DNA from: Acidobacteriota bacterium
GTDB taxonomy: Bacteria; Acidobacteriota; Thermoanaerobaculia; Multivoradales; JAGPDF01
Reading direction: 5' to 3'
Assembly: GCA_017860005.1 (NCBI GenBank)
Contig: JAFNAE010000013.1
Location: 1-42,451, forward strand
Length of the DNA stretch: 42,451 bases
Numbering within the stretch: the first letter of the stretch is position 1; each line of letters opens with the position of its first letter. Both the position numbers and the translations under genes were made by a program. Shown here piece by piece: positions 467-19,449 of the stretch. The notes below the pieces were generated by a model. That model had not been told where the DNA came from. It ran no database searches and was given only the letters and a program-made list of their open reading frames with translations.

Positions 467-1795
467 TCAGTGCGCCGGGGAGAGTCTCCGGCGGCGCAGG
501 ACCCACCAGATCGGGATGAAGACGACGACGGCGATCACCAGCCACCAGGGCCACCAGAAGAGCCAGCGGCAGCAGCGGCCGATCAGGACGTCGCCCAGAC
601 CCGGGGTGCCCTCGGCCATGCCCGGGGTGGAGTTGAGGTTGCCGTTGGCGACCACGTCGTCGTGCATGTCGTTGATCTCGGTGGTGGTCGCGTCGTTGTC
701 CTCCCAGCGGTCCAGGTACTCGCGGCCCCAGCTCACCTCGGTGGCGCTCGCCGCGGCGTAGACCGCCAGGTTGGCGTGCTGGCCGTCGCCCGCCATCGGC
801 AGGAAGTCGCCGGCGAAGCACTGGTCGTGGATCATGAAGTGGCGGCAGACCGCGCAGTCGGCGGTGTCGGCGGCGAGCTCGGCCGGGGAGTAGAGCTCGC
901 CGGCCTGCAGGCCGTTGTTGTTGCCGTCCCACAGACAGACGCCATCGTCGTCGGCGCCGTGGTTCGAGAAGTAGGTGAACAGGATGTCGCGGCGCGGGTC
1001 GAGGTCGTCGCACAGCTGCTGGATGCGCGCGCGGATCGTGCCCTCGTCGGCGCCGGCGGTGACGTCGTTGCCGGTGGCGTCGCTGTTGTCGCCGTCGGCG
1101 TTGTCGAGGTCGAGCGAGGCGCCGTCCGCGTAGTAGACGGAGATCTGCGCCTTCGGGTAGCCGGCACCGCGCAGGATCTGGTACATGCTGCGCAGGTTCT
1201 GCCGGTAGCGGTCGTAGTTGGAGCCCGAGCTGATGCCGCCCGACACCAGCACCGCGTGGAGGCACGAGCGCGGCCGGGTGACGTCCACGAGCTTGCCGAT
1301 CGGGATGCGCACGGCGAGCTCGGGACAGGCCTTGGCGGTCAGCGCCCGGCAGCGGAACTCGACCGCCGGGCCGTTGCCGCCTTGCGAGAGCACCACCGGC
1401 GGGAAGTCGCGGACGATCGCCGGGCCCGTCTCGCCCGTGTCGGCGTCGACGAACAGCCAGCGCACCGGGTGGCCGAAGTTGGCGTCCGGCTGGTCGTCGA
1501 TCATCACCAGCCAGGTGCGTGGATAGGGGAAGGGGAGGTCGGGGCTGCGTCCGGCGACCAGGTCGCGCGCGACATGGGTCGGATCGAGCGGACGCTCGGT
1601 CGTCCACAACGTGCGCTCACCGAACTCGCCGCCGAGGACGCGCTCGCGCACCAGCTCGGCGACCTGCTTGGGGTCGGCGTAGCGCGGCTCCCCCCTCTCC
1701 TGGCAGATCGCCGGCGCGGGGCCGAGCAGCGAGAGGATGGCCAGCAGGAGCGCCGGCAGGACGATCCAGGAGCCGTGGCGGGTCGGGACTCTCAT
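467..1795 (-). CDS. Clan CD cysteine peptidase (legumain/caspase-like) with signal peptide and C-terminal membrane anchor
   Basis: Codes for 442 residues. The start is the ATG at 1795, with GGAGGAG 3 nt upstream; an in-frame ATG at 1864 lacks this site. Residues 8-31 form a signal peptide. The core near residues 178-360 shows the clan CD layout: a strand (HAVLVSGG), then FTYFSNHGADDD with catalytic His279, then MIHDQCFAG with catalytic Cys326. These resemble the legumain (C13) and caspase SHG and QxC motifs. An Asp/Asn-rich loop at 229-245 could bind calcium. Residues 411-432 are a Trp-rich membrane helix followed by RRRR, so the catalytic domain should face the periplasm. The substrate is unknown. 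Family assignment rests on the His/Cys motifs and their order; a close match to legumain itself is not claimed. Confidence 0.75.
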   Translation of the reverse strand: MRVPTRHGSWIVLPALLLAILSLLGPAPAICQERGEPRYADPKQVAELVRERVLGGEFGERTLWTTERPLDPTHVARDLVAGRSPDLPFPYPRTWLVMIDDQPDANFGHPVRWLFVDADTGETGPAIVRDFPPVVLSQGGNGPAVEFRCRALTAKACPELAVRIPIGKLVDVTRPRSCLHAVLVSGGISSGSNYDRYRQNLRSMYQILRGAGYPKAQISVYYADGASLDLDNADGDNSDATGNDVTAGADEGTIRARIQQLCDDLDPRRDILFTYFSNHGADDDGVCLWDGNNNGLQAGELYSPAELAADTADCAVCRHFMIHDQCFAGDFLPMAGDGQHANLAVYAAASATEVSWGREYLDRWEDNDATTTEINDMHDDVVANGNLNSTPGMAEGTPGLGDVLIGRCCRWLFWWPWWLVIAVVVFIPIWWVLRRRRLSPAH

Positions 1796-2007
1796 CGTCT
1801 CCTCCTTCCCGGGCGTCGCCGGACGAAGGTCGCTCCGGGCGCGACATTCGGGGGTTCCAACCACTTCAGACGAACCAGCGGGCCGGACCGGACGGCGGGA
1901 GCCCCGCCCGGGTGGCTCGAGGCGCTTCGTCGGGGTCGGACGATCGCCGATCCAGGGAGGACGCGGGCCGGGCCTCGATATGCTCCGAACGCTGCGGAGG
2001 TGCTCCG

Positions 2008-2431: not shown

Positions 2432-2959
2432 TCAGCCCGGGTCGACGATCCGCAGCGAAGCCGCGTCGTCGGCGAGCGCCATCACCCGTACCCGGCCGGC
2501 GTCGAAGCGGAGCGTGCCCGCGAAGGCGGGACGCGGCAGCTCCCCGGCGCCCGGCGGCGGATCGACGGGCAGGAAACGGACCTCCACGCGGCGCTCGCCG
2601 GGGGCCACCAGCACGAGCTCCTCGACCACCAGCGGCCGGGTGCGGCGCAGGCCCCGGTGGACGATGCGCCGGTCCACGCGCGGGCGGCCGTCCACGGCCA
2701 CCTCGAGCCGGTAGTCGACCGCGGTCTCCTCGCAGGTGCGCGCCTGCCGCATGTGCGCGGGCAGGGCGGCGAGCTCCCCGGCGCTGCGCTCGCGGCAGAT
2801 CTCGACGCGCGCGCGCGCGGTGCGCAGCGACAGGCGGAGCGCGCCGTCCGGGCTCGCCGCGCCGACCGGCAGGTGCGCCAGCGCCGAGATGGCGGCCAGC
2901 ACCGCCAGCGCCAGCGCCAGGCCGGCCGCGCCGCGCGCGAGCGGGCGCAGGTCAGGCAT
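2432..2959 (-). CDS. Membrane-anchored hypothetical protein, last gene of the haem-copper operon
   Basis: Codes for 175 residues from the ATG at 2959, overlapping the end of the upstream gene by 8 nt, so translation is probably coupled. Residues 8-32 form one hydrophobic segment that serves as a signal anchor. The rest is a soluble domain rich in beta-strand patterns (VDYRLEVAVDG, LVVEELVLVAPG, RVEVRFLPV) with two Cys (residues 55 and 76). I do not recognise a family. Its position at the end of a respiratory-complex operon, and its predicted location outside the membrane, suggest an accessory or assembly subunit. The reading frame is well supported by the overlap and high GC third positions. 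Confidence 0.7.
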   Translation of the reverse strand: MPDLRPLARGAAGLALALAVLAAISALAHLPVGAASPDGALRLSLRTARARVEICRERSAGELAALPAHMRQARTCEETAVDYRLEVAVDGRPRVDRRIVHRGLRRTRPLVVEELVLVAPGERRVEVRFLPVDPPPGAGELPRPAFAGTLRFDAGRVRVMALADDAASLRIVDPG

Positions 2960-4481
2960 CGGCGACCTCCACGAGCTGGTCGGTCGCCGCGCACTCCGGC
3001 TCGACCACGACGCCGGACTCGGGCCGGGCCTCGAGCGCGGCGACCGCGCCGCGCAGCGCCGCGATCTCCCGCCGTGCGGCCGCGAGCTCGCCCGGGGAGA
3101 ACGCGCCGAGCGCGACCCGGCGCCGGTCGACGCGCTCGCGCAGCTCCGCCTCGCGGCCGTGGAAGAGCCGCTCGGCGAGCCACTTCGGCCCCTCGCGGAA
3201 GCTGCAGCCGACCAGGTGGAGCTCGGCGGCCGCGACGTCGAGCTCCGCAGCGCGCCCGGCGATCGCATTGCGGCAGCCGATCACCACCACCTCGCGCCCA
3301 CTGGGCGGATGGGCGAGCAGCCAGCCGCGCGCCTCGGCGAGTTGGTCGCGCCCGGTGCGCCCGGCCGGGCCGACCCCCATCGGTGCGCACGAGCCGGCGC
3401 AGATGCCGCAGCCGACGCAGCGCTCCGGGTCGACGCGCGCGACCAGCTCCGAGCTCTGGCGGCCACGCGCGCGGGGCACCATGGCGATCGCCTCGTACGG
3501 GCAGTCCTGGTAGCAGGTCGTGCAGCCGGTGCACAGGTCCTCGTCCACCGCGGAGGGCCGGATCGGACGGCGCGGCCGCCAGTAGAGCGGCGCCGCGGCG
3601 GCGAGCGCGAGCACGGCCGCCCAGAGGCCGACCAGCGCGAGGGGCGGCAGCCGCTTCGCGGCCGGCAGCCAGAAGGCGTAGAAGAGGTCGAGGTGCATCG
3701 CGCCGGGCAGCGCGAGCAGGTCGGCGGCCGGCGCCAGCGCCACCGGCCAGAGCGCGGCGAAGAGCGCGAGCAGCGCGAGCGTCGCCCGGCGGACCCGGCG
3801 CGGCGGCAGCAGCACCGGACGGGCCACCTGCGAGACGTGCAGCCAGAGGCCGGCCGCCAGCCCGAGCGGCGCCGCGACGTGCAGGAAGAGGTTCATGAAG
3901 AAGAACGACGACGGCACCGGCTCGACGCCGTCGAAGGCGCGCCGGATGGGCAGCGAGAAGATGGGCAGCAGGTCGAGCAGGCGCGCGCCCTGATCGGCGA
4001 TCTGGAGCCCCTGCGCGTCCCAGACCAGGACCAGCCCGGTCCAGCCGCAGAACATCACCACGCCGAGCAGGGCGAGGCCGGAGATCCAGGCGAGCGTGCG
4101 CGGGCCCCAGGTCTGCCCGGCGGCGAGCTTGCGCAGCAGGTGGAGGACCGTGGCTGCCATTGCGAGGTCGGCGGCATAGCGGTGGAGCGAGCGCGCCCAG
4201 GAGCCCAGGAAGACCTCGTCCTGGATGTGCGCGACCGAGGCGTGGGGCTCCGCGATGCGGTAGAAGAGGAAGAGGTAGAGGCCGCTCGCGAGGGTGACCA
4301 GGAAGCAGAGCACCGCCAGGTTGCCGCTCTGCAGGAGCGGGTTGAAGCGCGAGCCGTAGACGCGCTCGAACAGCCGGTCGAGCGGCGCCAGGAGCGCCGT
4401 CACGCCGCGCGCGGCGCGCGGCGGGCCCGCGGGACCCGGTTCGGGATGCGGGGGCGCGCTCGGCGCGGCCGGGGCGGTCAC
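2952..4481 (-). CDS. Cytochrome b / two [4Fe-4S] ferredoxin / MvhD-like fusion protein
   Basis: Codes for 509 residues from a GTG at 4481 that overlaps the upstream stop as GTGA. Residues 45-220 are a cytochrome b core: two His pairs spaced 13 residues apart, H100/H114 and H201/H215, should hold two b haems. Further membrane helices lie near 232-252 and 278-300. A soluble part follows with two [4Fe-4S] motifs: C317-C320-C323-C327 and C355-C358-C361-C365. Residues 397-455 (VVVIGCRNA, then LHLVGCSFREG) resemble the MvhD/FrhD iron-sulfur domain of hydrogenase-heterodisulfide reductase systems, but keep only two cysteines (403 and 426). The end is a short coiled coil. It probably moves electrons between a quinone pool, a ferredoxin-type carrier and the CuA/haem-copper unit of this operon. 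The direction is unknown. Confidence 0.85.
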   Translation of the reverse strand: MTAPAAPSAPPHPEPGPAGPPRAARGVTALLAPLDRLFERVYGSRFNPLLQSGNLAVLCFLVTLASGLYLFLFYRIAEPHASVAHIQDEVFLGSWARSLHRYAADLAMAATVLHLLRKLAAGQTWGPRTLAWISGLALLGVVMFCGWTGLVLVWDAQGLQIADQGARLLDLLPIFSLPIRRAFDGVEPVPSSFFFMNLFLHVAAPLGLAAGLWLHVSQVARPVLLPPRRVRRATLALLALFAALWPVALAPAADLLALPGAMHLDLFYAFWLPAAKRLPPLALVGLWAAVLALAAAAPLYWRPRRPIRPSAVDEDLCTGCTTCYQDCPYEAIAMVPRARGRQSSELVARVDPERCVGCGICAGSCAPMGVGPAGRTGRDQLAEARGWLLAHPPSGREVVVIGCRNAIAGRAAELDVAAAELHLVGCSFREGPKWLAERLFHGREAELRERVDRRRVALGAFSPGELAAARREIAALRGAVAALEARPESGVVVEPECAATDQLVEVADA

Positions 4482-5398
4482 GAAGCGGTGCGCTCCACCC
4501 GGAGCGCGGCCTCGACCAGCCACGCGACCGGCGGATCGAGGAAGCGGTAGGCGATGCGCCCCTCGCCGTCGAGCACGTAGATCAGGCCCGGGTGCGAGAT
4601 GTCGCCGGTCTTCTCGTCGCGCGCGAAGCCGATGCCGTAGGCCTCGAGCGCGGCGAGCACGTCGGGCACCGGCCCGGACAGGACGCGCGCGCCGGGGAGC
4701 CCTTCGAGCTGCCAGGCGCGCGCCACGCCGGCGAGCGCCGCGGGCGTGTCGCGCCAGGGATCGAGGGTGACCACCACGAGCGGCGGCGGCGGCCCGGGAT
4801 AGGAGGCGAGCGCCGCGCGCAGGCGGTGGACGAGCGCGGGGCAGACGATCTGGCAGTGGCCGTAGGCGAAGGTCATGAGCACCGGCCGGCCGCCGAGCGC
4901 CGCGAGGTCGAAGGCGGCGCCGTGCTGGTCGACGAGCGCGAGCGGTGGCGCCGGGTCGGTGGTGCGGGGGTAGGCCTCGGGGAGAGGCTCGGCGGCCTCC
5001 TCGAGCGCGGGTGCGGCGGCACGCGCGGCGGCGCCGACACGGCCCGCCACCCAGACCCCGCCGAGCAGCAGGGTGGCGGCCACCGGGGCGAGCAGCAGCC
5101 AGCCCGCGGCGCGGCGGGCGAGCGCGGCCAGCGCGTCGGCCAGATCGCGCCCCCAGACCACGGCCAGGAAGGTGAGCATCGAGAGCGGCCCGAGCAGCAG
5201 GAGCATCCAGCCCCAGGTGTCGGGCAGGCCGTTGGGCAGCGTCCCGAAGCAGACCGAGCGCGTGCGCTCGAACCACGCGGGCGGCGCCGGCAGGGGGGCG
5301 AAGGCGAGCGTCCACCAGCCGACCGTGATCGCGAACCAGCCCAGGAAGGCGCCGAGCGCGAAGCGCGGCGCGTGCACGGCCCGCTCGGCATTCGCCAT
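4478..5398 (-). CDS. Sco/SenC copper chaperone fused to an N-terminal membrane domain
   Basis: Codes for 306 residues from the ATG at 5398. The N-terminal 120 residues hold about three membrane helices (13-35, 62-82, 98-120), unlike typical Sco proteins, which have one. Residues 140-300 are the thioredoxin-like Sco domain. The copper-binding CxxxC is C182-QIV-C186 in AYGHCQIVCPAL, and the third ligand is His269 in DISHPG. Sco proteins deliver copper to, or reduce, the CuA centre of subunit II, which is encoded two genes upstream, so the pairing fits. The stop overlaps the next start by 4 nt. The role of the extra membrane domain is unknown. Confidence 0.88.
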   Translation of the reverse strand: MANAERAVHAPRFALGAFLGWFAITVGWWTLAFAPLPAPPAWFERTRSVCFGTLPNGLPDTWGWMLLLLGPLSMLTFLAVVWGRDLADALAALARRAAGWLLLAPVAATLLLGGVWVAGRVGAAARAAAPALEEAAEPLPEAYPRTTDPAPPLALVDQHGAAFDLAALGGRPVLMTFAYGHCQIVCPALVHRLRAALASYPGPPPPLVVVTLDPWRDTPAALAGVARAWQLEGLPGARVLSGPVPDVLAALEAYGIGFARDEKTGDISHPGLIYVLDGEGRIAYRFLDPPVAWLVEAALRVERTAS

Positions 5399-5418
5399 GG
5401 CGGTCTCCCCGGCCCCCC

Positions 5419-7170
5419 TCAGCCCATCTTCCAGATCATCGAGAGCACCTTCCAGTTCGTGAAGTAGTAGAGGATGAAGACGGCGAGGAAGACGAACACC
5501 AGCACCAGGGTGCCCGGCGTGCCCGCCTCGTGGGCGGCCGCCGACGCCTCCGCCGAATGGGTCTGCGGCGGCAGGCGCAGGATGCCCTGGGGGATGCCGC
5601 GCGCGTCCGGTCCGGGCGCGGCCAGGTCGACCTTCTCGCCGAAGAAGACCGAGCCGACGGCGATCGCCACGAACATCAGCACCGCGATCGCGGCGAGCGT
5701 GCCGCCGATGCCGATGCCCGCCATCAGCACGTCCACCACGGGCGGGAACTCGAGCGTGAACGGCGCCTCCGGAAACGTGATGTCGGCGTGCCGGCGCGGC
5801 ACCCCGAAGCTGCCCGCGAAGGTCATGCTCATCGACAGCAGTGAGATGCCCGCCGCGAACAGGTAGGGCTGCCACTTGGCCATCGCCCAGAAGCGCACCC
5901 TGCGCTGGAAGACGAGCGGGATCAGGTAGTAGGTGACGGCCATGAACGCCAGCGCGGTGCCGCCCACCACCGTGACGTGGAAGTGCCCGGGCACGCGCAG
6001 CGTGTTGTGGACGATGATGTTGATCTGCTCGGTGCCCTGGGTGACGCCGGTGATGCCGCCCATGAAGCCGAAGATGACCAGCGAGAGCCAGAAGCCGGAG
6101 AAACCGGGGTCCGACCAGGGCGCGCGGCGCAGCCACTCGAAGCGTCCCTTGACGAAACCGCGCAGGCGCATGCCCATCTCGACACCGGCCGGCACCGTGA
6201 AGCCGTGGATCATCGAGGCCAGCACCGCGAGGTACATGGCGTAGCTGGTGTTCCAGATCTTCCAGGCCGGGCCCATGCCGGGGTCGACCAGCAGGTGGTG
6301 CGCGGAGGCCATCGAGATGAACAGCACGTAGAGCGTGAACGCCCAGCGGCTGACCTTCTGGTTGACCACCACCGCGCCCACGGTGAGGCCGCCCAGCAGG
6401 TACCAGATCGACACCATGGCGGCGACGTTGATCTGCTGCGAGGAGTGGCCGAGGCCCCAGAAGATCATGCGATAGACCTGGGGATCGACGGTGCCGATGT
6501 CGAGCGACCAGAGGAAGGTCGGGATGTAGATGGCGGCGCCGTGCAGGAGCGTGATGATCGCGATGATCGCCGCGGTCAGCGCGCCGTAGGTGACCAGCGG
6601 CACCGAGCCCTCGTAGCTGCGCTCGCGCCTGGCGACCACCATGGCGGCGAAGAAGAGAGAGGTGGCGATCAGGGCGCCGACCGCGAACAGGATAATGCCG
6701 AGGTAGAACGCCGGGTGGGCGCGCAGCGGCACGTAGGAGGTGAAGAGCACGTCGGCGCGGCCCATGAAGATCACCGCGTTGACGGTCAGCGCCCCGGCCA
6801 CCATGAGCCAGAAGCCGAGCCAGGCGGTCTTCGGCGCGGGCTGGCGCGCGCCGAGCATCACCGGGCCGGCGAAGTAGAGCACCGCCATCTCGAAGAAGAT
6901 GATGAAGAAGATCAGCATGTTGAGGCCGTGGAGAGTGAGGATCCGGTAGTACCAGACCGGTTCCAGCAGGTGCACCGCCTGCCAGCGCGTGAGCGCGAGC
7001 AGCAGGGCGGCGACGACACCGACCAGGAAGAAGACGACCGCGGCGACCGCGTTCCAGCGCACCAGGCGCTCGGAGTCTCGATTCAGGGTCAGCCCGGTCA
7101 CCGGGCAGACGCGCGCGGCGAGGCGCCAGAGGGCGCCGCCGGCGGGGACGGCGGGGGCGGCGGTGGTCAT
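5419..7170 (-). CDS. Haem-copper oxidoreductase subunit I lacking the active-site Tyr; probable eNOR-type NO reductase
   Basis: Codes for 583 residues with 12 or more membrane helices, from the ATG at 7170, which overlaps the upstream stop (ATGA). All metal ligands are visible: His81 and His398 for the low-spin haem, His396 for the active-site haem, and His242, His291 and His292 for CuB. In A-family oxidases the helix VI motif is HPEVY, with Tyr cross-linked to His. Here it is HSSQQ, placing Gln246 at the Tyr position, and the nearby Glu is also gone. Loss of this Tyr is a mark of NO-reducing haem-copper families; from memory, eNOR has Gln there. A C-terminal helix (553-572) follows a linker. 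An O2 reductase of unusual type is the alternative. Confidence 0.88.
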   Translation of the reverse strand: MTTAAPAVPAGGALWRLAARVCPVTGLTLNRDSERLVRWNAVAAVVFFLVGVVAALLLALTRWQAVHLLEPVWYYRILTLHGLNMLIFFIIFFEMAVLYFAGPVMLGARQPAPKTAWLGFWLMVAGALTVNAVIFMGRADVLFTSYVPLRAHPAFYLGIILFAVGALIATSLFFAAMVVARRERSYEGSVPLVTYGALTAAIIAIITLLHGAAIYIPTFLWSLDIGTVDPQVYRMIFWGLGHSSQQINVAAMVSIWYLLGGLTVGAVVVNQKVSRWAFTLYVLFISMASAHHLLVDPGMGPAWKIWNTSYAMYLAVLASMIHGFTVPAGVEMGMRLRGFVKGRFEWLRRAPWSDPGFSGFWLSLVIFGFMGGITGVTQGTEQINIIVHNTLRVPGHFHVTVVGGTALAFMAVTYYLIPLVFQRRVRFWAMAKWQPYLFAAGISLLSMSMTFAGSFGVPRRHADITFPEAPFTLEFPPVVDVLMAGIGIGGTLAAIAVLMFVAIAVGSVFFGEKVDLAAPGPDARGIPQGILRLPPQTHSAEASAAAHEAGTPGTLVLVFVFLAVFILYYFTNWKVLSMIWKMG

Positions 7171-7757
7171 CGGGTCTCCTCCCCGGGCGCGGTCGCGGCC
7201 GCCGCGACCTTGGTGCCGGCCGGCACGACGACGATGCGGCCGAGCATGTTGTGGTGTCCGACGCCGCAGAACTCGTTGCACACGACGCGGTATTCGCCGG
7301 CTTTGTTGGGCGTGATGCGCAGGCCGTAGTCGTAGCCCGGCACGACCTGCAGGTTGAGGTTCGCCGGGTAGAGGCTGAAGCCGTGGTTGACGTCGAGCGC
7401 CGAGAGGTGGAGGGTGTAGGTGACACCCTCCTCGAGCTGGAGCGCCGGGTACCAGCGCCACATCTGGCCGAGCAGGTAGACCTCGGCGCCGGGCGGCGGC
7501 GCCACCAGCGGGACACCGTGGTCGTCGCCGATGCCGTACTCCTCGGCGAAGCGCAGCGTGCGCTCCGCGAAAGCGGCGGGATCGACCCTGCTGCGGATGC
7601 CGGTCGGGTTCTGGCCCCCCTTCAGGTGCCAGAAGGGCATCATCGCGAACAGGACCAGGCACCAGACGAAGGCGATCGCGATCCAGAGGCGTTCCTGGCG
7701 GTTGGCCGGGCGCCACCAGACGCCGCGGGCCGGGACGAGGCCGGAGATCAGTTCCAT
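7167..7757 (-). CDS. Haem-copper oxidoreductase subunit II with intact CuA site
   Basis: Codes for 196 residues from the ATG at 7757. One membrane helix (22-42) anchors a periplasmic cupredoxin domain; subunit II of classical aa3 oxidases usually has two helices. The CuA ligands are all present: His125 in DVNHGF, Cys160, Glu162, Cys164, His168 and Met171 in CNEFCGVGHHNM. The aromatic stretch MWRWYP (99-104) is where cytochrome c usually hands over electrons. The enzyme should therefore take electrons from a c-type cytochrome or another small carrier and pass them to subunit I. The gene overlaps subunit I by 4 nt. Confidence 0.92.
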   Translation of the reverse strand: MELISGLVPARGVWWRPANRQERLWIAIAFVWCLVLFAMMPFWHLKGGQNPTGIRSRVDPAAFAERTLRFAEEYGIGDDHGVPLVAPPPGAEVYLLGQMWRWYPALQLEEGVTYTLHLSALDVNHGFSLYPANLNLQVVPGYDYGLRITPNKAGEYRVVCNEFCGVGHHNMLGRIVVVPAGTKVAAAATAPGEETR

Positions 7758-7767
7758 GGCGGGGTCC

Positions 7768-7932
7768 TCAGGGCAGGTTGCCGGCCGGGAGCGAGAGGAT
7801 CTCGTACATCCCCCAGCCGGTGTAGAAGAGGAACATCACCAGCAGTCCGGCGAGGAGCAGCAGAAACGGGCGGTCGAACAGCCGCTGCCCGAGCGGAACT
7901 GCCTCTTCGGCGTCGTCGGCGGGATGGGGCAT
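7768..7932 (-). CDS. Small single-helix subunit at the head of the haem-copper operon
   Basis: Codes for 54 residues from the ATG at 7932, with AGGAGG 5 nt upstream. A charged N-terminus (DDAEEA) is followed by one membrane helix (residues 20-42) and a short tail with YTGWGMYEI. It ends 10 nt before subunit II, so it is the first gene of the operon. Small one-helix proteins of this kind accompany several haem-copper enzymes, such as subunit IIa of ba3 oxidase. I infer a structural or assembly role and see no metal ligand. Confidence 0.7.
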   Translation of the reverse strand: MPHPADDAEEAVPLGQRLFDRPFLLLLAGLLVMFLFYTGWGMYEILSLPAGNLP

Positions 7933-8465: not shown

Positions 8466-8942
8466 TCAGGGGGCCGGGAGGGCCGGCGCCGGCACCGCCA
8501 GCAGCTCGCGGACCCGTTCGATCACCTCCGGCAGGGCGGCGCCGACCGCCGGCGAGAGCTCCATGCCCAGCGCGAGCGGCGGCTGGACCGAGACGGTGAC
8601 CAGCTCCGTGGGCGGCATCCTGCCGAGCAGCGTGGCGGTCTCGAGCAGGTCGCGCAGACCGATCTCGTGGGCCGAGAGCGCGCGCGGGAACTCGCTCAGG
8701 AAGCGGGGACGAAGGACGCGCACGGTGCCCGCCGGGAAGCCGTCGAGCGCGGCGTCGATCAGGATCAGGCGTTCGACCGCGTCGAGGTGGGAGAGGAGGT
8801 GGAAACCGCCGGTGCCGCCGTCGAGCACGGCGACGTGCTCGCCGAGCGGCGTCTCCGCCAGGCGCTGCGCGGCGCGCACCCCGACCCCCTCGTCTCCCAT
8901 CAGGACGTTGCCGATGCCGAGGACGAGCGTCCCGGTGCCGAT
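8466..8942 (-). CDS. hyaD: [NiFe] hydrogenase maturation endopeptidase; apparent ATC start
   Basis: This protease removes the C-terminal tail of the hydrogenase large subunit after nickel insertion. Conserved features are TLVLGIGNVLMGDEGVG at the N-terminus and the nickel-sensing residues: Glu in GDEG, Asp in LILIDAAL and His in SAHEIG. The reading frame clearly continues upstream of the first ATG (8900), because the GIGN strand is encoded there, but no ATG, GTG or TTG exists before the preceding gene. The best position is the ATC at 8942, 6 nt after GGGGAGG; starting there gives 158 residues. Either a rare ATC start or a single-base change is involved; an ATG-8900 start would lack the first strand. 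It is the last gene of the hydrogenase operon. Confidence 0.85.
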   Translation of the reverse strand: MGTGTLVLGIGNVLMGDEGVGVRAAQRLAETPLGEHVAVLDGGTGGFHLLSHLDAVERLILIDAALDGFPAGTVRVLRPRFLSEFPRALSAHEIGLRDLLETATLLGRMPPTELVTVSVQPPLALGMELSPAVGAALPEVIERVRELLAVPAPALPAP

Positions 8943-8973
8943 CGCGGACCTCCCCGCGCGCTTCGTTGCGCGC

Positions 8974-9654
8974 CTACGGTTTCGGCTTCTCGACGAACTT
9001 CCAGCCCCCGGCCATGGACGAGATCACGCCCCGCCCCTCGACGTAGTCGTGGTAGAAGACCAGGTAGACGTGCACCATCGAGAAGACGACGAAGAACCAC
9101 ATGAAGACGTGGTGCCACTGGCGGACGGCGAAGTCCCCGCCCATCAGCGGCACGATCCAGGCGAACAGTCTCGGCAGCTTGGCGTCGCTCATCGCCGCGT
9201 ACATGCCGAAGCCGGTCAGGGACTGGAACAGGAAGACGAGGAAGGTCGCGAAGTAGGTCACGCCGGCCAGGGCGTTGTGGCCGACCGACTCGATCGACTC
9301 GTCTTTGGCGAGCAGGACGTCGACGCGGAGGACCTGGCCGATCTCCTTCGCCTGGCGGCGCAACCGGCCCTTGCCGAAGGGCAGGAACTGGTGCCAGCGG
9401 GCGTGCTCGTTGCCGACGAAGCCCCAGTAGATGCGGCCCAGGAAGTTGAAGAAGAAGACGAACGCGGCGGTGAAGTGCACGAAGCGCACCCAGCCGAAGG
9501 AGTAGTTCTGCCAGGCCTCGCCGCCGATGTGCGGGAAGAACGGGCGGCCGATCATGAAGCCGGTGACCGCGAGCACGGTGACGCACAGGGCGTTGACCCA
9601 GTGGTAGAGCCGCACCGGCAGCTCCCAGACGTAGACGCGCTGGAGGTTCGCCAC
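8974..9654 (-). CDS. hyaC: Hydrogenase b-type cytochrome subunit
   Basis: Codes for 226 residues from the ATG at 9654, 10 nt after the large-subunit stop. There are four membrane helices with the pattern of Ni/Fe-hydrogenase b-type cytochromes. Candidate haem ligands are His18 in LYHWVN, His60, the pair H181/H182 in RQWHHVF, and His195 in MVHVYLVFYHDY. The protein ties the hydrogenase dimer to the membrane and passes electrons from H2 to the quinone pool. Near its end is the family's usual EGRGVISSM segment. Confidence 0.93.
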   Translation of the reverse strand: MANLQRVYVWELPVRLYHWVNALCVTVLAVTGFMIGRPFFPHIGGEAWQNYSFGWVRFVHFTAAFVFFFNFLGRIYWGFVGNEHARWHQFLPFGKGRLRRQAKEIGQVLRVDVLLAKDESIESVGHNALAGVTYFATFLVFLFQSLTGFGMYAAMSDAKLPRLFAWIVPLMGGDFAVRQWHHVFMWFFVVFSMVHVYLVFYHDYVEGRGVISSMAGGWKFVEKPKP

Positions 9655-9664
9655 GGCCGCCTCC

Positions 9665-11383
<1,719 letters not shown>

Positions 11384-11395
11384 GGCCGCCTCCTC

Positions 11396-12514
11396 CTACC
11401 TCTTCTCGCCCGCCGAAGGGGCGGGGCCGGCTGGCTCGTTGCGCACCTCGAGCAGCTTCCGTTTGCGGATGTTGGTGGTCACGGCGTGGACCGCGATGCC
11501 CGCCGCGGTCGCCGCGCCGACCGCGACGCCGATGTCGTCGGCGGTCGTCTCGATACCGAAGCCGGGGAAGCCCGCGAGGTGCTGGTAGAAGGGGCCGTTG
11601 TCCCAGAAGTTCGCCTCGCTGCAGCCGATGCAGCCGTGTCCCGACTGGATCGGATAGGAGACGCCGGCGTTCCAGCGCATGACGCCGCAGGCGTTGTAGG
11701 TGACCGGTCCCCGGCAGCCGACCTTGTACAGGCAGTAACCGCGCTTCGCGTTCTCGTCGTCGAACGACTCGACGAACAGGCCGGCGTCGTAGTTGGGACG
11801 GCGGTAGCAGGTGTCGTGGACGCGCCGGGAGTAGAAGGCCAGCGGCCGCCCGAGCCCGTCGAGCTGGGGAATGCGGCCGAAGGTGAGCAGGTGCACGATG
11901 GTGCCCGCCATCACCTCGCCGATCGGCGGGCAGCCCGGGACGTTGATGATCGGCTTGCCCGAGACGAGCTCGTGGATCGGCGTGGCGTCGGTCGGGTTCG
12001 GCCGGGCGGCCTGGATGCAGCCGTTGGAGGCGCAGCTTCCCCAGGCGACGATCGCCTTCGCACCCGCGGCCGCCTCGACGAGGATGTCGCGCGCCGTGCG
12101 GCCGCCGATGCAGCAGTAGACGCCGCCGTCGGCGGTCGGGACCGAGCCCTCCACCAGCATCAGGTACTCGCCCTGGTGCTTCGTCATCGACTCGTGGAGG
12201 GCCGCCTCGGCCTGGTGTCCCGACGCGGCCATCAGGGTCTCCGTGTAGTCGAGCGAGATCAGGTCGATGAGGATGTCGGCGACGATCGGGTGCGAGGAGC
12301 GGATGAACGATTCGCTACAGCAGGTGCACTCCTGGAAGTGGAACCAGACCACGGGCACCCGGGCCTTGGTCTCGAGGGCATGGACGACCTGGCCGACCGC
12401 GGACGCCTCGATGCCGGCCGCGGCGGCGAGCCAGGTGCAGAACTGCACGAACTCGCGCCGCGAGTAGCCCTTCAGTTGCGCGTGTTCCCAGACGCTCAGC
12501 GGTCTCTTCGTCAT
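11396..12514 (-). CDS. hyaA: [NiFe] hydrogenase small subunit with six-Cys oxygen-tolerant proximal cluster
   Basis: Codes for 372 residues from the ATG at 12514, with AAGGGGAG upstream. A Tat signal (SRREFVQF, residues 18-25) directs export. Cys63, Cys65, Cys66, Cys161, Cys166 and Cys195 line up, with a constant offset of 46, with residues 17, 19, 20, 115, 120 and 149 of the known oxygen-tolerant MBH. All six ligands of its [4Fe-3S] cluster are therefore present. The distal cluster has His233, Cys236, Cys261 and Cys267; the medial cluster has Cys276, Cys295 and Cys298. A C-terminal helix (326-346) anchors the protein. An additional Cys pair, 134-135, has no assigned role. Confidence 0.95.
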   Translation of the reverse strand: MTKRPLSVWEHAQLKGYSRREFVQFCTWLAAAAGIEASAVGQVVHALETKARVPVVWFHFQECTCCSESFIRSSHPIVADILIDLISLDYTETLMAASGHQAEAALHESMTKHQGEYLMLVEGSVPTADGGVYCCIGGRTARDILVEAAAGAKAIVAWGSCASNGCIQAARPNPTDATPIHELVSGKPIINVPGCPPIGEVMAGTIVHLLTFGRIPQLDGLGRPLAFYSRRVHDTCYRRPNYDAGLFVESFDDENAKRGYCLYKVGCRGPVTYNACGVMRWNAGVSYPIQSGHGCIGCSEANFWDNGPFYQHLAGFPGFGIETTADDIGVAVGAATAAGIAVHAVTTNIRKRKLLEVRNEPAGPAPSAGEKR

Positions 12515-12755
12515 GTCGCTCCCCTTCGTCGATCGACCGGCAACATGTACGCCGCGAGGGCCGTTCCGGCAGGACGGGACGGGTCGCGACGGCTGGAGAC
12601 ACGTTTGAGCTGAGGCGTTGATACCACCCGCGGCCCGTGCCGCATGCCCTCTGGGCGGGCAGCGGGGACGTGCGTGCGCGGGTGGCGCACGCGCCCCTCC
12701 GGGAGGGTGGGCGGCGCGCCGAGCGGCGGATGCGACAATCGGGGCGGACCTCGAA
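12515..12755. promoter_or_regulatory. Divergent control region between the hydrogenase and hypA operons
   Basis: A 241-nt region must hold promoters for both operons. GACAAT (12734-12739) is a plausible -10 for hypA. A hairpin with an 8-bp stem, GCGTGCGC (12672-12679) with GCGCACGC (12685-12692), lies upstream of it. I did not find a convincing sigma-54 element or a -35 for the hydrogenase side. Confidence 0.35.
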
Positions 12756-13097
12756 ATGCACGAGATGTCGATCGTCCAGGCGCTCCTCGACCGTGTCGAG
12801 GCGGAGGCCGAGGCGCACGCGGCGAGCGCCGTCGTGGTCGTGCGGGTGGCGATCGGTACGCAGTCGGGCGTCGAGCCCGATCTGGTGCGCTCCGCCTTCG
12901 ATCTGGCGCGAGCCGGAACCCGCTGCGCGGAGGCCGAGCTCGTCATCCGGAGCGTGGAGGCGGTGTGGGCCTGCGTGGCGTGCGCGCGTCCGCTGGCGGC
13001 AGGCGAGCGACTCCGCTGTCCGCGCTGCGGCGCGCCGGCGCGTCTCGCGAGCGGCGACGAGATCCTGCTCGAGCGGCTCGAGCTGGAGGTGGCCTGA
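12756..13097 (+). CDS. hypA: Hydrogenase nickel incorporation protein HypA
   Basis: Codes for 113 residues from the ATG at 12756. The N-terminus MHEMSIV includes His2, the nickel ligand of the family. A zinc finger is formed by Cys73-VA-Cys76 and Cys88-PR-Cys91. HypA receives nickel and works with HypB to insert it into the large subunit. Its stop overlaps the hypB start (TGATG), so the two are translationally coupled. Confidence 0.95.
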   Translation: MHEMSIVQALLDRVEAEAEAHAASAVVVVRVAIGTQSGVEPDLVRSAFDLARAGTRCAEAELVIRSVEAVWACVACARPLAAGERLRCPRCGAPARLASGDEILLERLELEVA

Positions 13098-13807
13098 TGT
13101 GCGAGGACTGCGGCTGCGGCGACCCGGCCCTGGTGCCGGTGGAGGTCCAGGAGAGTCTGCTCGCCGGCAACGACCGCGTGGCACGCCACAATCGTGAGCA
13201 CTTCCTCGAGCACGGCGTGCTCGCTCTCAATCTGATGGGCTCGCCCGGCTCCGGCAAGACAGCGCTGCTCGAAGCCACCGCGCGCGCGCACACCGGCCTG
13301 CGCATCGCCGCGGTGTCGGGCGATCTGGCCACCGACCGCGACGCGCGGCGCCTCGAGGCCGCGGGCATTCCGGCGCGCTCGATCACCACCGGCTCGGCCT
13401 GCCACCTCGATGCCGAGATGGTGCACCACGCGCTCCACCACCAGGCGCTGGCGGGGCTCGACGTATTCGTGGTCGAGAACGTCGGCAACCTGGTCTGCCC
13501 GGCGGTCTACGACCTCGGGCAGAACGCCAACGTGGTGGTGCTCTCGGTCACCGAGGGCGAGGACAAGCCGCTCAAGTACCCGGTCATGTTCCGCAAGGCC
13601 GACCTGGTGGTGCTCACCAAGATCGACCTGCTGCCGCACCTGGACGTCTCGCGCGCCGCGATCGAGGACGCGCTCGCCCGCACCATGCCCGAGCCGGCGG
13701 TGATCGCGCTCTCGGCGAAGACCGGCGAGGGCGTCGAGCGCTGGGTCGCCTGGCTGGCGGCGCGGCATGCCGGGCTCGCCGCCGGGACGGCGGCGGCAGG
13801 GAGTTGA
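13097..13807 (+). CDS. hypB: Hydrogenase nickel incorporation GTPase HypB
   Basis: Codes for 236 residues from the ATG at 13097. Residues 2-7 (CEDCGC) form the N-terminal high-affinity metal site. The P-loop is GSPGSGKT (48-55), and the internal metal site is in TTGSACHLD. Later motifs (VVENVGNLVCP, TKIDLLP) are typical of HypB/UreG GTPases. GTP hydrolysis drives nickel transfer from HypA to the hydrogenase. There is no long poly-His stretch; a His-rich loop occurs instead in the next gene. Confidence 0.95.
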   Translation: MCEDCGCGDPALVPVEVQESLLAGNDRVARHNREHFLEHGVLALNLMGSPGSGKTALLEATARAHTGLRIAAVSGDLATDRDARRLEAAGIPARSITTGSACHLDAEMVHHALHHQALAGLDVFVVENVGNLVCPAVYDLGQNANVVVLSVTEGEDKPLKYPVMFRKADLVVLTKIDLLPHLDVSRAAIEDALARTMPEPAVIALSAKTGEGVERWVAWLAARHAGLAAGTAAAGS

Positions 13808-13808
13808 C

Positions 13809-14543
13809 GTGGACGCCGGCGGGACGTTCGCCCTGCTCACCACTGCGGCTTCGATCGGCGTCGTCCACACGCTGCTCGGCCCCGATCACTACCTGCCGTT
13901 CGTGGCGCTCGGCCGCGCGCGCTCGTGGCCGCTGTCGCGCACGCTGGCGCTGACCGCGTGGTGCGGCGTCGGCCACGTCGCCGGCTCGATCGCTCTCGGC
14001 GCGCTCGGCGTCGCTTTCGGCTGGGCGCTCTCCGGGCTGGTCGCGGTCGAGGAGCTCCGGGGCCGCCTCGCCGGCTGGCTGCTGCTCGCCTTCGGGCTCG
14101 CCTACCTGGCCTGGGGCGTGCGCCGGGGGCTGCGCGAACGGCCGCACCGGCACGCGCACGCCCACGGCGACGGCACCGTCCACGCCCACGGCCACGACCA
14201 TCTGGGAGAGCACGCGCACCCCCACGACGCCGCGCAGGCGTGGGGAGATGGGCCTCTGCGCCGGTGGCTGGGGCCGTGGACCGTCTTCGTGGTCTTCGTT
14301 CTGGGGCCGTGCGAGCCGCTCATCCCGGTACTGATGTACCCGGCCGCCGGCGGCGACTGGGGATCGGTGGCCGCCGTCGCCGCGATCTTCGCGACGGCCA
14401 CGATCTCCACCATGCTGGTGCTGGTCGGCGCCGCATCGCTCGGTCTCGCCCGCCTCTCGGCCGCTCCACTCGAGCGCTGGTCGCACGCGGCGGCCGGCGC
14501 CGCGCTCGCCGCCTGCGGCCTGGCGGTCACGCTCGGGCTCTGA
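13809..14543 (+). CDS. Membrane metal (probably nickel) transporter with a His-rich loop
   Basis: Codes for 244 residues from a GTG at 13809, 1 nt after the hypB stop. About six membrane helices are visible. The first carries VVHTLLGPDHYLPF, a His/Asp motif like that of the UreH/NicO/RcnA group of nickel and cobalt permeases; the second carries CGVGHVAGS. A cytoplasmic loop near residues 119-150 is very rich in His (HRHAHAHGDG, HAHGHDHLGEHAHPH) and could gather nickel. The hyp context points to nickel supply for the hydrogenase. Export, as in RcnA, cannot be excluded from sequence alone. Confidence 0.75.
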   Translation: MDAGGTFALLTTAASIGVVHTLLGPDHYLPFVALGRARSWPLSRTLALTAWCGVGHVAGSIALGALGVAFGWALSGLVAVEELRGRLAGWLLLAFGLAYLAWGVRRGLRERPHRHAHAHGDGTVHAHGHDHLGEHAHPHDAAQAWGDGPLRRWLGPWTVFVVFVLGPCEPLIPVLMYPAAGGDWGSVAAVAAIFATATISTMLVLVGAASLGLARLSAAPLERWSHAAAGAALAACGLAVTLGL

Positions 14544-14592
14544 CCCGGCGGGCCGGCGCCGCGCCCGTCCCGGCGGCGAAGCTCCGCCTGTC

Positions 14593-15663
14593 TCAGCAGA
14601 TGCGCGGCAGCTGCTCGCCGGAGAGCATGTCGACGACGCGCAGGCCTCCGATCGAGCTGCGCAGGGTCACCCGGCCCGGCACGTCCTCGATCACTTCGCC
14701 CACGATCGCGGCGTCGCGCCCGAGCGGATGCGAGCGCAGGGCGTCGAGCGCGGTCTCCGCCGCCTCGCGCGCGACGATGGCGAGGAGCTTGCCCTCGTTG
14801 GCGACGTAGAGCGGGTCGAGCCCGAGCAGCTCGCAGACCGCCCGCACCGGCTCGATGACCGGGATCGAGGTCTCCTCGAGCCGCACGCCGAAGCCGGCGC
14901 GCAGGGCGATCTCGTTGAGGGCGCTCGCCACGCCGCCGCGCGTCGGGTCGCGCAGGACGTGGAGGTCGGTGCCGAGGCGCGCGACCAGGGTCGCAACCAG
15001 GCCGTGGAGGGGAGCCGAGTCGCTCTCGATCGCGCTCTCGAACTCCAGCCCCTCGCGCACCGAGAGGATCGCGGCACCGTGCTCCGCGATCGAGCCGGAG
15101 AGCAGCACCGCGTCGCCCGGGCGCGCGCGGCGCGGGTCGATCACCAGTCCCGGCTCGACCAGGCCGATGCCGGCGGTGTTGACGTAGACGCCGTCGCCCT
15201 TGCCGCGGTCGACCACCTTGGTGTCGCCGGTGACCACGGGCACGCCGGCGGCCGCGGCCGCGGCACGCATCGAGGTCACCACGCGCGCCAGGGTCTCCAT
15301 CGCCAGCCCCTCCTCGAGGATCAGGGCGCAGGAGAGCGCGAGCGGGCGCGCACCGCACATGGCGAGGTCGTTGACGGTGCCGTGCACGGCGAGCGAGCCG
15401 ATGTCGCCGCCGGGGAAGAAGAGCGGCCGCACCACGTAGGAGTCGGTGGTGAAGGCGAGCCGGGCGCCGCCGGTGTCGAGCACGGCGCCGTCGTGGAGGA
15501 CGGCGAGCGCGGCGTTGTCGAAAGCGGGCACGAGCAGGCCCTCGATCAGCTGCTGGGACAGCCGGCCGCCGCCGCCGTGCGCCATCTGAACGGTGGGGTA
15601 GTCGGAGAGCGGCAGCGGGCAGGAGCCGCCGAAGGCGGGGTCGGCGATCGGTTCGTCGCTCAT
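14593..15663 (-). CDS. hypE: Hydrogenase maturation protein HypE (thiocyanate-forming dehydratase)
   Basis: Codes for 356 residues from the ATG at 15663, overlapping the hypD stop as ATGA. It has the AIR-synthase/PurM fold: [14 protein letters not shown] at the N-terminus, then [17 protein letters not shown]. The protein ends in PRIC; the terminal Cys356 is the residue that HypF carbamoylates and HypE dehydrates to thiocyanate, the source of the cyanide ligands. It is last in the hypFCDE unit and faces the permease gene across a 49-nt GC-rich gap with no clear terminator. Confidence 0.95.
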
Positions 15664-16748
15664 GCGCTCCTCGCGTAGCGGTAGTAGGCGGAGCAGGCGC
15701 CTTCGGCCGAGACCATGGGTGCGCCGAGCGGGCGCTCGGGCGTGCACTGGCGGCCGAAGGCGGAGCACTGGTGCGGTTTGCGCAGGCCCTGCAGGATCTC
15801 CCCGGCGATGCACAGCGGCGACTCCTCCGCCTCGAGACCGGAGACCTCGAAGCGGCGCTCGGCGTCGAAGGCCGCGTACTCCTCGCGCAGGCGCAGTCCC
15901 GAGGCGGGGATGGGGCCGATGCCGCGCCACTTGCGGTCGCAGACCTCGAGCACCCGCGCGACCAGGTCCTGGGCGGGGCGATTGCCGTCGCGGGTGACCG
16001 CGCGCGCGTACTGGTTCTCGACGCCGTGGCGGCCCTGCTCGAGCGCGCGCACCGCGAGGTGGATGCCCTGCAGCAGGTCGAGGGGCTCGAAGCCGGTGAC
16101 CACGACCGGGATCCGGTAGCGCTCGGCGATCGGCTCGTACTCCCAGTAACCCATCACGGCGCAGACGTGACCGGCAGCGAGGAAGCCCTGCACCCGGCAG
16201 TGCGGCGAGCCGAGGATGGCCGCCATGGCGGGCGGCACCAGGACGTGGGAGACGACCACCGAGAAGTTCGCGAGCCCGAGCCGCGCGGCCTGCCAGACCG
16301 CCATCGCGTTGGCGGGCGCGGTGGTCTCGAAGCCGACTGCGAAGAAGACCACCTGCCGGTCCGGGTGCCGCTGCGCCAGCTTCACGGCGTCGAGCGGCGA
16401 GTAGACGATGCGCACGTCGCCACCCTCGGACTTCACCGCCAGCAGGTCGGTGGCCGAGCCCGGCACGCGCAGCATGTCGCCGAAGGAGGCGAAGATCACC
16501 CCCGGCCGGCGCGCGATCGCGATCGCGCGGTCGATCTGCTCGAGCGGCGTGACGCAGACCGGGCAGCCGGGGCCGTGCACGAGCGTGATCGTCTCCGGCA
16601 GCATGCGGTCGATGCCCGAGCGCAGCAGGGTGTGGGTCTGGCCGCCGCAGATCTCCATCAGCGTCCACGGGTGGCGGGCGTCGCGCGCGATGGCGGCGAG
16701 CAGGCGGCGCGCCGCCGACTCGTCGCGGTATTCGTCGACGTAGCGCAT
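15660..16748 (-). CDS. hypD: Hydrogenase formation protein HypD
   Basis: Codes for 362 residues from the ATG at 16748. HypD holds a [4Fe-4S] cluster and builds the Fe(CN)2CO unit with HypC. Visible motifs are [10 protein letters not shown] (Cys34), [10 protein letters not shown] (Cys62 and Cys65), [12 protein letters not shown] and, near the end, [20 protein letters not shown], with the cysteines expected for the cluster. It lies 4 nt after hypC and overlaps hypE by 4 nt. Confidence 0.96.
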
Positions 16749-16752
16749 CGCC

Positions 16753-17037
16753 TCAGTCTCCCCGGGCGCGCGCGCCGCCCGCGCCGGTGTCCCGCCCGAG
16801 CTCGGCGTCGAGCTCGCCGGTGCCGGTCAGGTACTCGAACATCCGCCGCGCCTCCTGCTCGTCGACCTTCGAGATCGCGAAGCCGACGTGCACGATGACG
16901 TACTCGCCGACCTCGACCTCCGGCGTGTAGGCGAAGCAGACCTCCTTGACGACGCCGCCGAAGTCGACGCGTCCGGTGGAGATGCCGATGGCGCTGGGCA
17001 CGATCTCGAGCACGCGGCCGGGGACTCCGAGGCACAT
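16753..17037 (-). CDS. hypC: Hydrogenase assembly chaperone HypC
   Basis: Codes for 94 residues from the ATG at 17037. The N-terminus MCLGVPGRV has the essential Cys2 that binds the iron centre, followed by the OB-fold pattern [16 protein letters not shown] and [14 protein letters not shown]. HypC shuttles the Fe(CN)2CO unit from HypD to the large subunit. It lies 12 nt after hypF. The C-terminal 15 residues are Gly/Ala/Arg-rich and look unstructured. Confidence 0.95.
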
Positions 17038-17049
17038 GGCGAACTCCTT

Positions 17050-19449
17050 TCAGCTTCCGGCGCGCACCCGCGCGCGGGCGACGGCGACCTGGCCGAGGGC
17101 GATGCCACCGTCGTTGGCCGGGATGGAGCGGTGGAGCAGGACGTCGTGGCCGTCTGCGCGCAGGAGGCCGGCGAGCTCGAGCGTGAGCCGGCGGTTCTGG
17201 AAGCAGCCGCCGGTGAGGGCGACGCGCGCCGCGCCGACCCGGCGCGCCACCTCGAGCGCGGCGGCGGCGAGCGCGGCGTGGAAGCGGCCGGCGATGCGCG
17301 CCACGGTCGCGCCGCGCGACCGCTCCTCGAGCACCGCCGCCACGAGCGGGCGCCAGTCGAGCTCGAGCAGGGTGGCGCGGCGGCGCTCGCCGGGCGAGTC
17401 GAGCTCGAGCAGCGTGGCGCGGCGGCGCTCGCCGGGCGCGAGCGCCTGCGGGGCGGGCGCCTCGGCGAGCGGGAACGGATAGGGGTCGATCCGCGCCGGC
17501 CCGGCGGCGAACTCGAGCGCCATGGCGGCCTCGCCCTCGAAGCTGACTCGCCCCGCGAGACCGGCGAGCGCCGCCACGCCGTCGAACAGGCGGCCGGCGC
17601 TCGACGTCCAGGGCGAGGCGAAGCCGCCGGCGAGCAGACGGCCCAGTGCCCCGAGCTCGCGCGCAGTGAAGCCGAGCTGCGCGCCGAGGGAGGTCAGGGC
17701 CTCGGCGTCCTCGACCTCGGCGGCGAGCGCGAGGGCGACGCGGCGCGGCTCGCGCACCGCCGCCTCGCCGCCGAGCAGGCGGAACGGGCGCAGCCGGGCG
17801 ACGCGCTCGAAGGCGGTCGCGTCGCCGAGCAGGAACTCGCCGCCCCAGACCGTCCCGTCGGCGCCGTAGCCGGTGCCGTCCCAGGTCACGCCCAGGGCGA
17901 CGCCCGGCGCGCCGTGCTCGGCGAGCGCGGCGGCGAGGTGGGCGTGGTGGTGCTGGACGGCCAGCGCCGGCAGCGCGGCGGCCGGCCGGCCGCAGCGCTC
18001 GAGCAGGCCGCCCTCGGCGCGGGCGGCCGCGAGCGCCCAGCGCGTGGTCGGATAATCGGGGTGGAGGTCGTGGGCGACGAGCGCCGGCGGGGCGTCGTAG
18101 ACGCGCACGAAATCGAGGATCACGCGCTCGAAGGCGGCCAGCGCCTGCGGCGTCTCCATGTCGCCGATGTGCTGCGACAGGAAGACCTGCCGGCCGACCG
18201 CCAGCGCCACCGCGTCCTTCTGGTGGGCGCCGGCCGCCAGCACCGTGGGCCCGTCGTCACCCACCAGCACCGGCAGCGGCGCGTAGCCGCGCGCCCGGCG
18301 CAGGAGCTGGGGCGCGCCGTCGAGGATCCAGGCCACGCTGTCGTCGACGTGCCTCGCCACCGGCCGGTCGTGGCCGAGGAAGAGGTCGGCGATGCCGCCG
18401 AGACGGGCCGCCGCCTCCAGGTCTTCGATGGCGATCGGCTCGTCGGTGAGGTTGCCCGAGGTGGCGATCACCGGGAAGTCGAGCGCCGCCAGGAGCAGAT
18501 GGTGCAGGGGCGTGGTGGGCAGCATGACGCCCAGGTTGGGATTGCCCGGCGCCACGCCGTCGGCGAGGCCGGAGTCGTGCCGCCGTTCGAGCAGCACGAT
18601 CGGGGCCTCGCGGGCGCCGAGCAGCGCGGCCTCGGCCTCCGGCACGTGCGCCACGCGCCGCGCGGCGTCGAGGTCGCGCACCATGATCGCGAGCGGCTTG
18701 GCCGGGCGGCGCTTGCGCGCGCGCAGCCGGGCGACCGCGCGCGGGTCGCGGGCGTCGACCAGGAGCTGGAAGCCGCCGAGGCCCTTGAGCGCCAGCACGG
18801 CGCCCGCGGCCAGCGCCGCGGCCGCGCGCGCGAGCGCCTCGCCGCCCTCGGCCAGGCGCTCGCCCCGCCCGTCGGAGAGGGCGATCCGCGGCCCGCATCG
18901 GGGACAGGCATTGGGCTGGGCGTGGAAGCGCCGGTCGAGCGGGTCCTCGTACTCGCGGCGGCACTCCGGGCACATGGCGAAGCCGCTCATCGTGGTGCGC
19001 GCGCGGTCGTAGGGGAGGTCGGAGAGGATGGTGAAGCGGGGCCCGCAGTTCGTGCAGTTGGTGAACGGGTATCCGAAGCGCCGGTCGGCGGGCGCGAAGA
19101 TCTCGCGCCGGCAGTCGGGGCAGGTCGCGAGGTCGGGCAGGATGACCGCGCTCGGGGCGGCCGCGGCGTCGCTCGCGGCGATCCGGAAGACGCGCTCTCC
19201 GGCCGCGGCGATCGCCCGCGTTTCCACCGCCTGCACGACCGCCGGGGCGGGGCGCTCGGCGACCAGCCGGACGCTGAAGCTCTCGACCGCGGCGGGAGTC
19301 CCTTCGACCTCGAGGATCACGCCGCGCCCGTCGTTGGCGACCCAGCCCCCGAGCTCGAGCTCGCGCGCCAGCCGGTAGACGAACGGCCGGAAGCCGACAC
19401 CCTGGACGGCGCCGCGAACCTCGACGTGGAGTCGCGCTCGAGCGGGCAT
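17050..19449 (-). CDS. hypF: Carbamoyltransferase HypF
   Basis: Codes for 799 residues from the ATG at 19449. Domains in order: acylphosphatase (GAVQGVGFRPFVYRL, 13-27); two zinc motifs (C110/C113 with C132/C135, and C160/C163 with C182/C185); a YrdC-like domain (about 200-385); and a Kae1-like domain with QHHHAH near residue 505. HypF makes carbamoyl-adenylate from carbamoyl phosphate and ATP and passes it to HypE. Residues 670-697 are a 14-residue segment repeated twice (PGERRRATLLELD pattern), encoded by a 42-bp tandem duplication, between the Kae1-like core and its last part. The start has a TAGCTT hexamer 7 nt upstream and no Shine-Dalgarno. Confidence 0.95.
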   Translation of the reverse strand: MPARARLHVEVRGAVQGVGFRPFVYRLARELELGGWVANDGRGVILEVEGTPAAVESFSVRLVAERPAPAVVQAVETRAIAAAGERVFRIAASDAAAAPSAVILPDLATCPDCRREIFAPADRRFGYPFTNCTNCGPRFTILSDLPYDRARTTMSGFAMCPECRREYEDPLDRRFHAQPNACPRCGPRIALSDGRGERLAEGGEALARAAAALAAGAVLALKGLGGFQLLVDARDPRAVARLRARKRRPAKPLAIMVRDLDAARRVAHVPEAEAALLGAREAPIVLLERRHDSGLADGVAPGNPNLGVMLPTTPLHHLLLAALDFPVIATSGNLTDEPIAIEDLEAAARLGGIADLFLGHDRPVARHVDDSVAWILDGAPQLLRRARGYAPLPVLVGDDGPTVLAAGAHQKDAVALAVGRQVFLSQHIGDMETPQALAAFERVILDFVRVYDAPPALVAHDLHPDYPTTRWALAAARAEGGLLERCGRPAAALPALAVQHHHAHLAAALAEHGAPGVALGVTWDGTGYGADGTVWGGEFLLGDATAFERVARLRPFRLLGGEAAVREPRRVALALAAEVEDAEALTSLGAQLGFTARELGALGRLLAGGFASPWTSSAGRLFDGVAALAGLAGRVSFEGEAAMALEFAAGPARIDPYPFPLAEAPAPQALAPGERRRATLLELDSPGERRRATLLELDWRPLVAAVLEERSRGATVARIAGRFHAALAAAALEVARRVGAARVALTGGCFQNRRLTLELAGLLRADGHDVLLHRSIPANDGGIALGQVAVARARVRAGS
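17356..17439. repeat. 42-bp tandem duplication inside hypF
   Basis: Unit one (17356-17397) and unit two (17398-17439) are adjacent direct repeats that differ at two positions. The unit is 14 codons, so the frame is kept. It adds one extra copy of a short charged segment to HypF. Confidence 0.85.

Follow-up and report, generated by a model that had tools for sequence, protein, structure and literature searches.

A Gln-type haem-copper gene block of an Acidobacteriota bacterium that probably encodes an electrogenic NO reductase (eNOR)

The catalytic subunit of haem-copper oxidases carries in helix VI a tyrosine that supplies an electron and a proton in O2 splitting, and a subunit with glutamine at this place raises the question of which gas its enzyme reduces. 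Such a subunit I is encoded at 5419-7170 on the minus strand of the 42,451-nucleotide stretch of Acidobacteriota DNA analysed here (the window). The gene is open throughout, with zero stops in its 583-amino acid translation, and its product matches Pfam COX1 with an E value of 1.2e-66. Alignment with Thermus ba3 and with A- and B-family subunits places His81, His242, His291, His292, His396 and His398 in the six metal-ligand columns, as the first-pass annotation of this DNA had proposed. In helix VI, the window subunit reads GHSSQQIN and ba3 reads GHPIVYFW; the HPxxY motif with its cross-linked Tyr, by which B-family ba3 is recognized, is absent and HSSQQ stands instead. Gln246 occupies the column of the HPxxY tyrosine and Gln245 that of the residue preceding it (CAG codons at 6433-6435 and 6436-6438, respectively, minus strand).

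Examination of the aligned columns clearly shows that the substitution noted in the window extends to all of its relatives. Gln245, Gln246 and Asn248 are each found in 102/102 Gln-type subunits, whereas Tyr occupies the 246 column in 21/21 B-family and 4/4 A-family subunits. Because the QQ pair recurs in all 102 relatives, which come from many independent assemblies, sequencing error and chance are both ruled out as its source. Glu94, His322, Tyr281 and Tyr310 are likewise invariant over the 102 Gln-type subunits, and neither these letters nor those of Gln245, Gln246 and Asn248 are usual at the same columns in 21 B-family subunits, Tyr281 and Tyr310 being clade specific and absent from the B family. 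Therefore, the glutamine change is a mark of the family. Nor is a tyrosine supplied from the C-family position in helix VII, six residues before the HH pair, an arrangement that the first-pass annotation had held to speak against its reading: the residue is Ile285 in the window and Ile or Leu in 102/102.

The helix VI motif had originally been compared with the HPEVY of A-family oxidases. HSSQQ itself was read correctly, but B-family ba3 is the apter reference, since subunit I finds its closest solved relatives in the Thermus B-family ba3 oxidases (E about 1e-43) and in the enzyme of Aquifex, with A-family enzymes matched at only about 1e-9. Descent from an A-family oxidase that had lost its Tyr is rejected by this search and by the tree described below, and assignment to A-family CtaD is at odds both with the TIGR02891 score of subunit I (102.8 bits against a cut-off of 670.75) and with the missing HPEVY-type Tyr. 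The A-family aa3 of the same genome (L001) shares the fold family and the His ligands, but it reads HPAVY and is distant in tree and search alike.

A tree of 76 subunits, 49 of them Gln-type, was built with IQ-TREE under a mixture model (support is given as bootstrap/SH-aLRT). All 49 Gln-type subunits, including those of the window and of Rhodothermus marinus DSM 4252, fall into one branch (100/100). Adjoining it is a distinct branch of the Tyr-bearing B-family subunits (100/99), and the A-family, C-family and Asn-type subunits lie outside. The comparison with R. marinus, aa3 and ba3 that had been suggested as a check puts the window in the R. marinus branch and outside every Tyr-bearing oxidase, and the contrary outcome, placement inside an O2-reducing clade, was not seen in the 76-subunit tree. 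The nearest relative, at 87%, belongs to a Thermoanaerobaculia MAG of the Acidobacteriota. The R. marinus genome that was used (G405) encodes an ActC that shows full identity with chain C of the R. marinus alternative complex III (PDB 6f0k), and it holds one Gln-type match only. An eNOR has reportedly been purified from Rhodothermus marinus and shown to reduce NO, in work attributed to Murali et al. 2024. The passage of PMC11388526 that cites Murali et al. 2024 describes eNOR as a biochemically characterized NO reducer related to B-family oxidases, and PMC12569097 cites the same work.

In the literature, eNOR subunit I is told apart by a conserved Gln, where O2 reductases have Tyr and other NORs E, N or D (PMC8756737), in agreement with what the first-pass annotation had said of eNOR. 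The active-site letters tabulated in the same source are E for cNOR and qNOR, N for sNOR and CuANor (bNOR), D for gNOR and Q for eNOR (PMC8756737 Table A4). The features expected of eNOR that were found in the window are Gln at the helix VI Tyr place, a common branch with R. marinus, B-family kinship, and a CuA subunit II directly upstream. The eNORs of Ardenticatena maritima and SURF MAG 42 also have Gln at the Tyr position and a cupredoxin subunit II directly upstream (PMC4653789, PMC8756737). Asn-type subunits I were encountered at L175:5016-6500 (Thermomicrobium roseum) and in L136, with HTLVN/HTIVN at the Tyr position and in a separate branch; the T. roseum gene adjoins a formate/nitrite transporter gene, and both subunits are possibly sNOR-like. 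In the plasmid eNORs of Thermus thermophilus (L030:9983-11665 and L031:9983-11668), HFK replaces HFH in helix X, and Lys would there stand in place of the His ligand of the low-spin haem.

Subunit II (7167-7757, minus strand, 196 amino acids) has a complete CuA site, whose ligands H125, C160, C164, H168 and M171 are each present in 100/100 aligned subunits. Glu22 is equally constant (100/100) and aligns with Glu15 of ba3 subunit II, at the mouth of the ba3 channel. Thermus thermophilus ba3 (PDB 1ehk/1xme) and the window enzyme have in common the His ligands, the CuA subunit and the Y248/S309/T315/E15-type channel positions, and they differ by Tyr237 to Gln246, Tyr244 to Val253 and Thr312 to His322, as well as by falling in separate branches. 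Within the Gln-type subunits, the counterparts of ba3 Tyr248 and Ser309 are kept throughout (Tyr257 and Ser319, 102/102 each) and that of Thr315 mostly (Thr325, 91/102), whereas Tyr244 is replaced by Val or Ile and Thr312 by an invariant His (His322, 102/102). A K-channel-like path appears to be partly kept, and the pattern is compatible with a proton path that was rebuilt to serve a Tyr-less site. One proton channel is predicted for eNOR in the literature (PMC8756737).

Subunits I and II belong to a compact block of six genes that spans 7932 to 2432 on the minus strand. The block starts with a small one-helix protein of 54 amino acids (7768-7932) and ends with a conserved protein of 175 amino acids (2432-2959), and for neither did a Pfam search return a family. 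Downstream of subunit I lies a SCO-family copper chaperone (4478-5398, 306 amino acids, PF02630 E 2.2e-17) that likely loads CuA/CuB; with the CuA ligands found in 100/100 subunits, this bears out the earlier claim of an intact CuA subunit accompanied by a Sco protein. The SCO stop is overlapped by the GTG start of a gene (2952-4481, 509 amino acids, PF00033 and Fer4 families) whose product joins a cytochrome b, with two H-x13-H pairs, to two [4Fe-4S] motifs; this protein is likely an electron-transfer partner of eNOR and is put forward here as a candidate. Directed searches of 101 eNOR loci found homologues of subunit II in 99/101, of the 54-amino acid protein in 83/101, of SCO in 82/101, of the cytochrome b/[4Fe-4S] protein in 80/101 and of the 175-amino acid protein in 55/101, counts that are lower bounds or slightly inflated because contig ends are among the loci and a few genomes occur twice. 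The R. marinus enzyme shares with the window the Gln-Gln-x-Asn of helix VI, the six His, the CuA subunit II with Glu22, the 54-amino acid protein and the branch (100/100); however, its subunit I is 46% identical to that of the window, and SCO or cytochrome b/[4Fe-4S] neighbors are not detectable within the 18 kb examined. We tentatively raise the idea, which we regard as rather unlikely, that the cytochrome b/2[4Fe-4S] protein, the small protein, SCO and subunits I and II make up a dedicated supercomplex that reduces NO with electrons taken straight from quinol (or a ferredoxin-type donor). The recurrence of the cytochrome b/2[4Fe-4S] gene in 80/101 loci fits this idea but does not show it; were it true, many phyla would possess in eNOR a self-contained quinol:NO module that moves protons.

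Just upstream of the block and on the same strand, the window carries a [NiFe] hydrogenase with hyp maturation genes (8466-19449, minus strand), including the large subunit (9665-11383), the small subunit (from 11396) and a cytochrome b561 (8974-9654). The hydrogenase was rejected as a part of the eNOR system, [NiFe] hydrogenase being absent from the other eNOR loci compared. A second COX1-like protein of about 480 amino acids sits right beside eNOR in 22/98 loci (for example, L045:4906-6348, L111:7793-9244 and L104:6367-7851); it keeps the His of helices II, VI and X (VVHVDL, WGGGHVLQ and PAHYHA) but lacks an HH pair in helix VII, so that the haem ligands are kept and the CuB site is apparently lost. 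Elsewhere in the window are a Peptidase C13/caspase-like protein that has a membrane helix at its C terminus (467-1864, minus strand, PF01650 E 2.6e-5) and two tandem pairs of AlgX-like (20299-21645 and 23122-24318) and MBOAT acyltransferase genes (21649-23076 and 24323-25777), which together form a polysaccharide O-acetylation-like cluster in duplicate (20299-25777, minus strand).

If the enzyme reduces NO, is it found together with enzymes that make NO? A nirK or nirS gene lies within about 10 kb of eNOR in about 16/97 loci (nirK-type in about 13, nirS in 3-4); one nirK exceeds the NCBIfam cut-off with 360.8 bits, and the nirS near eNOR in Thermus TF24 has the cytochrome d1 domain. Across the phylum, the Gln-type enzyme occurs in 10/396 genomes. 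NirK-type proteins (E up to 1e-30) or NirS are present in 8/10 of these versus 13/386 others (Fisher p 6e-10), and a strict count of NirK over the curated cut-off plus NirS gives 6/10 versus 8/386 (p 1e-7), p values that ignore shared ancestry, although the ten eNOR genomes span six families. In Ardenticatena, eNOR is in an operon with NirK (PMC4653789), whereas the NirK-like gene of the window's genome is on another contig. That contig (C237) encodes, besides the NirK-like protein, an azurin-like protein, a Crp/Fnr regulator and RIC, an iron-sulphur repair protein that scores over cut-off. The NirK-like protein (L038:5163-6317) has complete type-2 copper ligands and scores 179.8 bits, below the curated cut-off of 296.3; its type-1 copper site reads HVAMGQYG, which suggests that Gln replaces the axial Met. 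The genome holds only three COX1 proteins, namely aa3, cbb3 and eNOR, and the presence of a second eNOR paralogue as a partner was accordingly rejected. Neither NirS, nor NosZ over cut-off, nor another NO reductase was found in this genome, which is about 90% complete, and NosZ or another NOR may have been missed.

Given the six His, the CuA site, Gln246, the placement in the eNOR branch, a gene block shared by most relatives and the link with nitrite reductases, we propose, at a probability of roughly 0.88, that the block at 2432-7932 (minus strand) encodes eNOR, an electrogenic NO reductase making N2O. The first-pass annotation had likewise favored an NO reductase over an oxidase, and the Gln mark, the tree and the nitrite reductase tie now support it; the activity itself we infer from them. 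Could the enzyme nevertheless reduce O2? Haem-copper oxidases and NORs generally show some cross-activity, and a B-family-like O2 reductase might work without the cross-linked Tyr, taking the extra electron from, for example, Tyr310, Tyr281 or a haem, a scheme consistent with the ba3-like fold family, the intact CuA and Sco, and the two clade-specific invariant tyrosines. We consider this improbable given that the Tyr-bearing B-family subunits all fall in their own branch (100/99), that aa3 and cbb3 oxidases are already in the genome, that Ile or Leu takes the C-family helix VII Tyr position in all 102, that the Gln-type enzyme is tied to NirK/NirS, and that the characterized relative reduces NO (PMC11388526). 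Less credible still is that the enzyme belongs to bNOR, sNOR, gNOR, nNOR, cNOR or qNOR, several of which are related to the B family and have a CuA-like subunit (PMC11388526): the published letters of the five families compared, sNOR, bNOR, gNOR, cNOR and qNOR (N, N, D, E and E), do not match Gln246 or the Q of all Gln-type subunits, and the N-type proteins L129 and L136 stand outside the Gln-type branch (100/100).

What the NO reduction is for is a separate matter. The enzyme could serve to detoxify NO coming from neighbors or from outside and not be a respiratory step of the organism's own NirK pathway, which we think somewhat unlikely, though it deserves more weight than the readings just discussed. 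The organism's own NirK scores below cut-off, its genome encodes the RIC repair protein, no nir gene lies beside eNOR within the window, and the genomes G318 (same family as the window's) and G285 have eNOR and no NirK/NirS at 1e-30. Nevertheless, that CuA and the channel residues have been kept suggests that the enzyme conserves energy, and the co-occurrence with NirK/NirS is strong; the chemistry is unchanged under either reading.

As an eNOR, this B-family-derived haem-copper enzyme would catalyze 2 NO + 2 e- + 2 H+ -> N2O + H2O. The electron donor to CuA would be a small copper or c-type protein, and from CuA electrons would pass to the low-spin haem (His81/His398) and then to the high-spin haem (His396)-CuB site (His242, His291 and His292), where two NO are predicted to bind and couple. 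The catalytic Tyr would be dispensable, as NO reduction takes two electrons and both metals can supply them. Protons would be drawn from the cytoplasm through what remains of the ba3 K-channel, via Glu22 of subunit II and Thr325, Tyr257, His322 and Ser319, ending at Gln246; with uptake from that side, NO reduction would be electrogenic. Copper would be loaded by the SCO protein, the cytochrome b/[4Fe-4S] protein would likely pass electrons, and the NirK-like enzyme of the other contig would supply NO. A route from nitrite via NO to N2O is thus likely in this organism as judged from its genes, and N2O would be its end product, since no NosZ was found.

The eNOR family and its wide spread have already been published, and the window almost certainly holds a clear further member and not another kind of enzyme. 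As had been foreseen, automatic annotation turns such proteins into oxidases, and eNOR relatives are labelled 'cbb3-type' or 'b(o/a)3-type cytochrome c oxidase'; as a consequence, organisms capable of making N2O escape gene surveys. N2O is a greenhouse gas, and with the window a Thermoanaerobaculia-like Acidobacteriota genome, by its looks that of a nitrite-to-N2O organism, joins those with eNOR; the value here lies in correct annotation and in the conserved gene block.
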